This document shows, one piece after another, positions 439-5,927 of a DNA stretch of 36,412 nucleotides. Source of the DNA: Planctomycetota bacterium (GTDB lineage: Bacteria; Planctomycetota; Phycisphaerae; Sedimentisphaerales; Anaerohalosphaeraceae); assembly GCA_016873215.1 (NCBI GenBank), contig VGXU01000024.1, positions 1 to 36,412 of the forward strand, written 5' to 3'. Below the pieces are notes generated by a model, which had not been told where the DNA came from, searched no databases, and saw nothing but the letters and a program-made list of their open reading frames with translations. The stretch's first letter is position 1. Each line of letters opens with the position of its first letter. The translations under genes were made by a program, and so were the position numbers.

Positions 439-3183
<2,745 letters not shown>

Positions 3184-3579: not shown

Positions 3580-4075
3580 CCTATATTTCAAAGAACCACG
3601 GGGGCGGAAAAACGGCCCACTGTAATTACCATGGACTTGCGTGGCGGTGTCGAAAATTCGTGATTTTTGGATGGCGTAAAAACTGTAAGTCTTTATAGGA
3701 AAACGAGTTAAAATTTTTCGGAATACTTAAATATAGCAGGATAGTGAAATCGCAATTGTGTTGAAATAACATAAACCACAGATTGACGCAGATTGTCACA
3801 GAGAGAAAAAAGGGAGAAGGCGATAGACAAAAGGTATGTAGATATACAGGTATACAGGTATGCAGGGATGAGGAGGTGCAAGAACTTAACTCAAGAGGAT
3901 AAAACGTGTTGCGAATTGAGAATGCAGAATTGAGAATTGAGAAATTAACAGTATAAACAAGAAAATTTCAGGCGGGGTAGGACTAATGGGGCTTATAGGT
4001 CTAATAGGACCGATGGAACAGGATGGAGAAATAGAAATTTAAGCAATGGTTTTATAAAGGGTTTACAAAAAAAAT
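3580..4075. other. Gene-free region with further short repeats
   Basis: This stretch carries no supportable gene. It includes an A/T-rich segment (about 3650-3760) that could be an old leader or RNA element, but I see no convincing fold. A second run of TATACAGG units lies at about 3845-3868. At 3911-3950 there is a run of GAATTGAGAA-type units. The right end (about 4065-4085) belongs to the repeat into which the next element is inserted. Confidence 0.4.
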
Positions 4076-4076
4076 G

Positions 4077-4235
4077 TACCTGACCTGCTCTGTAGAAAAG
4101 CTGAACATGTGCCGCCCCTTCGGTGCTCAAAAAAAGGAAAGGAATCCATTCTTTCCGGGGGTTTCCACCACCGGCTATTTTATTTAAACCCTTCGGGGCT
4201 CCAAAACACAGGTTTTCTACAGAGCATACCTGACC
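4077..4235. mobile_element. MITE-like element with 14-bp terminal inverted repeats and 9-bp target duplication
   Basis: The element proper is 4086-4226 (141 bp). Its ends are perfect inverted repeats: TGCTCTGTAGAAAA (4086-4099) and TTTTCTACAGAGCA (4213-4226). It is flanked on both sides, with no gap, by the 9-bp direct repeat TACCTGACC (4077-4085 and 4227-4235), as expected of a target-site duplication. It has no credible coding capacity, so it would need a transposase in trans. Removing it and one duplication restores an uninterrupted A-run...TACCTGACCCCTTTA sequence. That resembles a GGGGTCAGGTA-type repeat I remember from other genomes (not checked). A structured RNA is the alternative, but the flanking duplication argues for transposition. 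Confidence 0.7.
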
Positions 4236-4261
4236 CCTTTATTTCTCCCTCTTTATTTCTC

Positions 4262-5563
4262 CTATCCGCCTGCGGCGGACCTTGGTGCGATTATTTGAAA
4301 TTTCAAAGAATTGCTGACGGCTTCCGCCGCCGGGGAGTCCGGCCGGGGCATTGTTTTGTACTTTACCCGGATACTATGAGTTCCTAAAGATAAAGGAATG
4401 GTTTGACTTTTATCCTCTTTTGTCGAGGGCGATTTTAATCCCCAATTTTCAGTCAGTTTAATGACGAGGAAATCGTAATTCACATTTTTAGGTTTTAACA
4501 TTCCGGCAAGCACGTCTGCCGCCGCAGGGCCGTTCCATTTATACCACTTTCCATCCACTCCAACCTCACAGAATTGTTCTAATGCAGCGCAGGCAAACGT
4601 TTTGTCGCCTGTGTTCAATAAATCTATTTTAAAGACCGGAATTTTATCAGAATAAAATGCTCTTCTTCCTGAATCTCCTTCGATTCTGATTTGAAAGCCG
4701 CTTGCTTCTTCGCCCCATTCGGCTTCCGTATCATAATCATCCTCCTCTTTTTCCTTTAGCCACCATGGAGTGCTCATGAGCCTTTCGGCTTCATTTAGGT
4801 CTTTGCAAAAAGTATGGTTTTGGCTCTTATAATAATCCCAGAATAAATCTTCCGCGTCTTTATTGAAAAACTTAAATTTGCTCTTTCTCTGCTGCTCCTC
4901 AAAAAAGAGTCTGAAAGCGTCAAGGGGTTCGGGGCCGGCCTGCTGGAAAATGACCCGCCCCTTATACTGTTTATACAATTCTTTCCTGATCTTCCAATCC
5001 AGAATGAATGATTTAGTTGAATCATCAATCAATTTAGCAGTATTACTATCGGCGCTATGATAAATACTTTCCGTATCAGGCGTTCTTTCAATAAGCCCTT
5101 TGTACAAATTGAAACTTTTTTCAAGCTGCGCTTTTTTGTCATCCTTCAGATTTTCAGCAATAAGCTCTTTTGCCAGATCATCTTTTTTTCTGTTCCATTT
5201 CTCCTTTTGGTCCGTCATAAAATGAATCATTCTTTCCTTGTATTCATTCACCTCCCGGTCTGTTACTTCCAGCCCTTTTTCCTTTGCATAATCATCCCAT
5301 AAAGGCCTGAAATAACGGCCCAGGTTTGACGCCCTGGTTTGTTTTAACCACAGACTGAAACCGCCGGCCGCATCCTGATGTTTTTCCTTTACCTCAGAAC
5401 CAGGCTCTATATCTTTAAGGCACACTTTTTGGCCGAGAACTTCCGCAAGAACCGTATCCTGCGGCAAATTTTCAAAAGGCTGGGTTGCCCCAACAATACC
5501 CATACCGAAGACCAGTATTGAAATTCCACATATCCACAGAGTGACATTTTGTTTGGCTTTCAT
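4262..5563 (-). CDS. Exported protein with SurA-N-like segment and C-terminal beta-sandwich-like domain
   Basis: This 433-residue protein has no function I can name. The start at 5563 (MKAKQNV) is chosen because AAGGAGAT lies about seven bases upstream; the longer frame to 5608 has no such site. A Sec signal or anchor (LWICGISILVFGMGIVGA) ends near residue 27. The next segment (VLAEVLGQKVCLKDIEP, then helices with the phrase GLEVTDREVNEYKERM) resembles the N-terminal chaperone part of SurA/parvulin proteins, but no isomerase domain follows. A charged helical middle leads into a beta-rich C-terminus with the phrases PVFKIDLLNTGDKTF and GTHSIRVKYKT, which look like an Ig-like sandwich. It probably acts outside the inner membrane. 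Downstream it ends just beside the MITE-like element. Confidence 0.75.
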   Translation of the reverse strand: MKAKQNVTLWICGISILVFGMGIVGATQPFENLPQDTVLAEVLGQKVCLKDIEPGSEVKEKHQDAAGGFSLWLKQTRASNLGRYFRPLWDDYAKEKGLEVTDREVNEYKERMIHFMTDQKEKWNRKKDDLAKELIAENLKDDKKAQLEKSFNLYKGLIERTPDTESIYHSADSNTAKLIDDSTKSFILDWKIRKELYKQYKGRVIFQQAGPEPLDAFRLFFEEQQRKSKFKFFNKDAEDLFWDYYKSQNHTFCKDLNEAERLMSTPWWLKEKEEDDYDTEAEWGEEASGFQIRIEGDSGRRAFYSDKIPVFKIDLLNTGDKTFACAALEQFCEVGVDGKWYKWNGPAAADVLAGMLKPKNVNYDFLVIKLTENWGLKSPSTKEDKSQTIPLSLGTHSIRVKYKTMPRPDSPAAEAVSNSLKFQIIAPRSAAGG

Positions 5564-5927
5564 ATTTGTATCTCCTTTTTGAACGGAAACAGTGGAATTA
5601 TACCGCAAAAAAGGGGAAAAGGGAAAAGGATAAAATTGTAAATTGACAATAGTGGATTGTAAAATGGAGAGTGGATTCCGGCTTTCGCTGGAATGACATG
5701 GACAGAAACGGGGGACGAATCGGGGTGACTGTCCTTCGTTTGAACCTTTGCTTGCCGCTTTTTTAGAAATCAGCTTGAATAATAACCCAGAACTTCAGTT
5801 ATTACAAGAACTTGCAAGAAAGTATGCTTAACGGTTATTTCGCTTTTTGACATCTTTTAAGAGGCGCAGATTGCAGTTAAGCAGAAACTGTCGGCAAAAT
5901 AAAGAGTTTTACTGAAATACTTTATAA
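5564..5927. other. Intergenic region with a REP-like hairpin and a possible gene remnant
   Basis: No intact gene is visible. At 5672-5697 lies a near-palindromic unit (ATTCCGGC 5675-5682 against GCTGGAAT 5687-5694, one mismatch). It resembles the widespread GGATTCCGGCTTTCGCCGGAATGAC-type intergenic repeat, recalled from memory. At 5739-5831 the plus strand reads 30 residues of plausible protein (FEPLLAAFLEISLNNNPEL... then LARKYA) before TAA. It has no start, and the codons before it look like repeat sequence. I read it as a possible C-terminal gene remnant, with low certainty. Confidence 0.4.

Follow-up and report, generated by a model that had tools for sequence, protein, structure and literature searches.

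A 141-bp candidate MITE with IS5-family (IS903-like) ends and its relatives in Planctomycetota

Insertion sequences of the IS903 group are listed with 9-bp duplications of their targets (in the available part of PMC3281130). A representative, IS903B of plasmid Rts1, is about 1 kb long, contains one transposase gene and has the same nonamer, cgttgtgtc, on both sides. Short, non-autonomous derivatives of insertion sequences are described as well, MITEAba12 being one of them (available part of PMC6382973), while ISPsy8, ISPa11, ISPpu9, ISPpu10 and ISRm22 target REP repeats and thus have a fixed insertion point within an interspersed palindromic repeat, some near its symmetry axis, with duplications of 0, 2, 3 or 6 bp (available part of Tobes and Pareja 2006, PMC1525189). 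The element considered here lies in the window, i.e., the whole 36,412-bp stretch of Planctomycetota DNA that was analysed, and it or its relatives have points in common with all three kinds of elements. Like MITEAba12, it is short, IS-derived and non-autonomous, although, compared with bacterial MITEs of that type as the cited part presents them, one terminal inverted repeat (TIR) is here combined with many unrelated interiors across the phylum. Like the REP-targeting insertion sequences, it enters an interspersed palindromic repeat at a fixed point; in contrast to what the cited part reports for them, its target is marked by A/T arms in symmetric positions, the GGTCAG repeat is bypassed by many of the insertions, and the duplication is 9 bp long. 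The kind of element is well known, while the family is new, being absent from the literature searched, and has two odd features: its interiors are exchanged, and its insertions follow a rule for the target. Searches for MITEs in Planctomycetes, IS5 MITEs and captured interiors returned no account of this family or of its end sequence, and a search with GGGGTCAGAC gave only papers with unrelated titles. In our judgement the 141 bp are very probably a non-coding MITE with IS5-family (IS903-like) ends, mobilised in trans by the DDE transposase that an element of this type encodes.

The 141-bp element and its copies in the same genome

The element occupies positions 4086-4226 of the window, and the order over 4077-4235 is TACCTGACC, TGCTCTGTAGAAAA, the interior, TTTTCTACAGAGCA and again TACCTGACC. 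Perfect 14-bp TIRs (left, TGCTCTGTAGAAAA, 4086-4099, plus strand; right, 4213-4226, minus strand) are abutted by perfect target-site duplications (TSDs) of 9 bp, matching 9/9 (4077-4085 and 4227-4235), and the repeat finder applied to this copy gave TIR arms of 18 nt with 94% complementarity. Scanning of inverted repeats with spans of 50-400 found a perfect 14-bp inverted repeat with an abutting perfect 9-bp direct repeat only once in the window, and this arrangement of TIRs and duplications appeared in none of 50 mononucleotide shuffles; direct reading together with the shuffle control confirms the first-pass annotation, which had described TIRs set directly against duplications, both perfect. 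The 141 bp hold no ORF of at least 100 aa, in agreement with the non-coding character of MITEs. On one side the element is neighboured by a 914-aa ORF (439-3183) containing PEP-utilising/PPDK domains, on the other by an ORF of 448 aa without a match in Pfam (4262-5608, minus strand).

The exact 14-bp end is present 18 times in the genome (10 forward, 8 reverse) against none for the reversed-pattern control. With the whole element as query, BLAST returned 24 places at E ≤ 0.01, eight of them full length including the copy in the window, so that seven full-length sister copies, 91-95% like the latter, are available. Identity over aligned bases was found for L020 and L009 (140/140) and for L020 and L023 (135/135), and since these three copies are mutually identical, some of the spread is recent; between the window copy and L020 there are 7 differences in 141 sites, and L026, L028 and L030 are degraded. 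L020, L021 and L024 are flanked by GGTCAGACA or its complement, L009 by the 8/9 pair GGAAACGCA/GGAAACACA, and a 68-bp short variant, adjoining an apparent tRNA gene (by eye), by TATCTAATT. The genome search for same-ended copies with varying 9-bp flanks, proposed as a check in the first-pass annotation, was thereby successful, the TSDs being different among sisters.

Distribution in the phylum and transposase-bearing elements with the same ends

In Planctomycetota the family is found widely but unevenly, since of 392 genomes drawn evenly from the phylum 19, counting the own genome, contain one exact end or more; the reversed control gave one match in each of 5 genomes among the matches listed. 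A scan of genome contigs for end pairs with 95-125 bp between the TIRs, a pattern that itself sets lengths to 123-153 bp, retrieved 26 loci, 25 titled as Planctomycetota or its subgroups and one as a Deltaproteobacteria MAG. The phage collection gave no match. From all loci collected, 74 distinct TIR pairs were harvested, with a TSD of 9/9 in 29 and of 8/9 in 9 of them; these 38 pairs, eight of which come from the own genome, have many different duplication sequences, so the earlier concern that other copies might lack flanking duplications is removed. The remaining 36 have TSDs below 8/9, some with hybrid or inverted flanks, and a few of them are probably chance pairings. Where one exact end was the starting point, the partner was sought within 3 kb and the TSD was at least 8/9, the elements measure 132, 147, 133, 132, 142, 131, 75, 349, 228 and 130 bp, giving a peak near 131 with exceptions.

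Search for the ends in 16 of the genomes behind the 26 loci led to a 1013-bp element (L092, the same as L132) with a transposase gene. The encoded protein contains the Pfam domain DDE_Tnp_1, and its best model is NF033579 (IS5 family), scoring 129.7 bits at a cut-off of 140. Homologues at E ≤ 1e-40 are present in 6 of the 392 phylum genomes, all six between matching or near-matching ends. One of these elements (L145, 1016 bp) has exact ends and a TSD of 9/9, another (L147, 985 bp) has a TSD of 9/9 and GGCTCTGTAGAAAA ends with one base changed per end, and the others, namely L146 (1004 bp), L148 (1000 bp, 2-3 changes per end), L150 (948 bp) and the broken L149 (1253 bp), are, like L092 itself, without an intact 9-bp duplication. 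An element on a plasmid of Paludisphaera borealis (NZ_CP019083.1, 108871-109841, 971 bp) combines exact ends and the TSD TCCCAATGT (9/9) with an annotated IS5 family transposase, which scores 149 on NF033579 (cut-off 140).

The planctomycete partner is similar to IS903B in size, in having one transposase gene and in the 9-bp TSDs (L145, L147 and P. borealis). NF033579 is the best NCBIfam model for both (356 for IS903B), the D, D and E residues of planctomycete transposases align with those of IS903B, and all four planctomycete proteins aligned have the spacing that we take to be the Y(2)R(3)E(6)K motif. The ends, GGCTTTGTTGAATAA in IS903B and TGCTCTGTAGAAAA in the MITE and its partner, are alike at 10 of 14 positions by eye. 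The transposases are, however, only 25% identical over 148 aa, and membership of the partner in the IS903 group is tentative; unlike IS903B, the partner has an end starting with T (G in L147), and the four intact planctomycete frames inspected stay open across the right TIR. In L092, L145, L146 and L183 the stop comes from flanking DNA. At L092:1135-2147 and L148:1143-2142 the flanking repeats are inverted rather than direct, as if two insertions in alike targets had recombined. Hybrid flanks could have arisen from recombination between copies, a source discussed for ISRm22 in the available part of Tobes and Pareja (2006, PMC1525189).

The protein search of the own assembly gave no match to a transposase of the L092 type, none of the five PF01609 (DDE_Tnp_1) matches in this genome lies between TIR pairs, and the same-genus genomes G001 and G002 gave no match to the partner transposase; one partner-type gene is present in G014, of the same family. 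The lack of a partner transposase in the own assembly counts against the reading, and mobilisation in trans is accordingly an inference. The search for a full-length, transposase-bearing element with these ends, suggested at the outset, was accordingly positive in other genomes (L092, L145, the P. borealis plasmid) and negative in the own assembly, and where the earlier reading had offered no named family, the partner can now be placed in the IS5 family as IS903-like, with the same ends on elements of 948-1253 bp. In this way a family and a partner transposase can be named for a group of short repeats that recur in many genomes of Planctomycetota, and TGCTCTGTAGAAAA ends with 9-bp duplications offer an easy handle for annotation. 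In the mechanism that we propose, the 14-bp ends would be the recognition ends of a Planctomycetota insertion sequence of about 1 kb from the IS5 family (IS903-like), the DDE transposase of which would move or copy the element in trans, presumably including the copy in the window; joining to cuts staggered by 9 nt would yield the 9-bp duplication, and the interior would ride as a passenger, being the three-hairpin repeat in the window copy and other repeats elsewhere.

The target site and the interrupted repeat

Joining of the flanks with the insert removed restores, on the minus strand, the target AAATAAAGGGGTCAGGTACATT, the left part of which (A-run ... TACCTGACC) is found at 4067-4085 and the right part (TACCTGACCCCTTTATTT) at 4227-4244, both on the minus strand. 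GGGTCAGRYA is present at 43 places in the own genome against 19 for the reversed control, and 6 of the 30 loci inspected hold the exact uninterrupted 22-mer, a seventh (L173) having one change. These uninterrupted copies establish the target as a real interspersed repeat, in accordance with the earlier claim that the restored target reads as a continuous repeat; together with the differing TSDs of the sisters and the transposase-bearing elements elsewhere, they support the interpretation of the 141 bp as a small non-autonomous element within another repeat. A second variant of the target repeat, AACCAAAGCGGGTCAGACACGCTTTT, is located in inverted orientation on both sides of a Y1_Tnp (RAYT-type) gene of the own genome, with one base changed once (repeats at C1:95276 and C1:96022, gene match at C1:95362-95709); the motif scan refers to this gene, L182, the genome having a second Y1_Tnp gene, L181. 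Over C1:95276-96031 the gene lies between inverted GGTCAGACA repeats, i.e., a favoured target of the MITE.

The 38 insertions with TSDs of 8/9 or 9/9 provide 76 arms, taken from both sides and read toward the duplication, in which position -5 is A in 75%, position -4 is A or T in 96% and position -1 is G in 64%, whereas each base makes up about 25% of the control; these pooled insertions are not independent, several coming from one genome. Of the 76 arms, 46 contain AAA within 8 bp, versus 9 of 75 control arms taken about 70-85 bp further out, and 35 of 60 arms do so after the copies of the own genome were left out; TCAG or CTGA is found within 18 of the 38 duplications. The insertions favour a symmetric A-rich/T-rich target, and in the own genome this is often the repeat that also flanks the RAYT-type gene. 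It is apparently the symmetric A/T arms that set the preference: the transposase would prefer approximately A A A A W N G G - N9 - C C N W T T T T, and in the own genome such sites would be supplied by interspersed repeats AAA..GGGTCAG(A/G)(C/T)A..TTT, which the copy in the window and several sisters would have entered. This target rule is testable.

Exchangeable interiors and competing readings

Interiors were clustered for 50 of the 74 pairs, leaving out those with TSDs below 7 and imperfect ends or with lengths of at least 400 bp, and fell into 16 blastn clusters with the same ends throughout; the clusters of L088 and L094 are N-masked and may join a larger one, so about 14-16 unrelated interiors are present. 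Most of the interiors are palindromic repeats. That of the window copy is a three-hairpin repeat, with plus-strand hairpins placed by alignment folding of cores at 4114-4126 (GCCCCTTCGGTGC), 4155-4174 (CCGGGGGTTTCCACCACCGG) and 4187-4199 (AACCCTTCGGGGC), and this repeat is found also without TIRs in the own genome and relatives. At L029, L032, L033 and L037-L039 the series GCCCCTTCGGGGC ... CCGGGGG..CCCCCGG ... GTCCCTTCGGGAC stands, whole or in part, without transposon ends. The TIR-less cores seem to include both sources of capture and decayed MITEs, and the interior is best regarded as passenger DNA, which may have been captured and would have no role in mobility.

Conservation of the hairpins raises the question whether the 141 bp are mainly a conserved structured RNA or a regulatory element, with the flanking direct repeats being incidental. 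Three hairpins are conserved across 21 cores taken from the own genome and from relatives, both sides having changed in 6 of 17 pairs, and the existence of cores without TIRs also speaks for such a view; against it, the covariation term contributes only -0.81 of -24.37 kcal/mol in alignment folding of these cores, the Rfam scan of the window gave no family at threshold in the element (one tRNA was found elsewhere), keeping of pairs is found in palindromic DNA repeats too, and unrelated interiors are enclosed by the same ends. A fold with covariation, which the first-pass annotation had set against its own interpretation, is therefore seen in part, in the hairpins and the both-side changes, but these changes leave the MITE reading intact because the same ends bear unrelated interiors elsewhere, and we hold a predominantly RNA nature of the element to be very improbable. 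Still harder to credit is that the ends and the GGTCAGACA flanks form one larger palindromic element of RAYT type (HUH), the 9-bp "duplications" being part of it. Several copies do have the common GGTCAGACA flank, and the motif is inverted on both sides of the Y1_Tnp gene, but the same ends are bordered elsewhere by the unrelated 9-bp repeats TATCTAATT, GCCGCGCAT, TGGCGGGAA, CTTCGTACT and TCCCAATGT, and the flank repeat also stands uninterrupted in the genome. We know of no direct duplications produced by RAYTs. As a general explanation the composite element is refuted by the varied duplications.

A different matter, concerning present activity only and compatible with a MITE mobilised in trans, is whether the copy in the window is a fossil and the family became immobile here after the lineage had lost the transposase; we rate this at slightly under an even chance. 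The own assembly without a partner transposase, the degraded copies and the seven sites at which the window copy departs from L020 are in its favour, whereas the perfect TIRs and TSD and the recent spread to which the identical L020, L009 and L023 point argue for the contrary. Besides, MAG assemblies often lose IS copies, and the missing transposase may reflect such a loss.

Returning to the MITE reading, the sharing of one set of transposon ends by unrelated palindromic repeats is the case of interest. We suggest, with considerable doubt, that one IS903-like pair of TIRs might act as a phylum-wide cassette, which repeatedly takes up whatever palindromic interspersed repeat is common in the host and spreads it, keeps a length of about 130 bp and inserts at symmetric A/T sites, RAYT repeats among them; if so, this element would account for the dispersal of some hairpin repeats of Planctomycetota. 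At L066, L067, L068, L090 and other loci, unrelated palindromic repeats lie between the same TIRs, with the total often being 129-133 bp.
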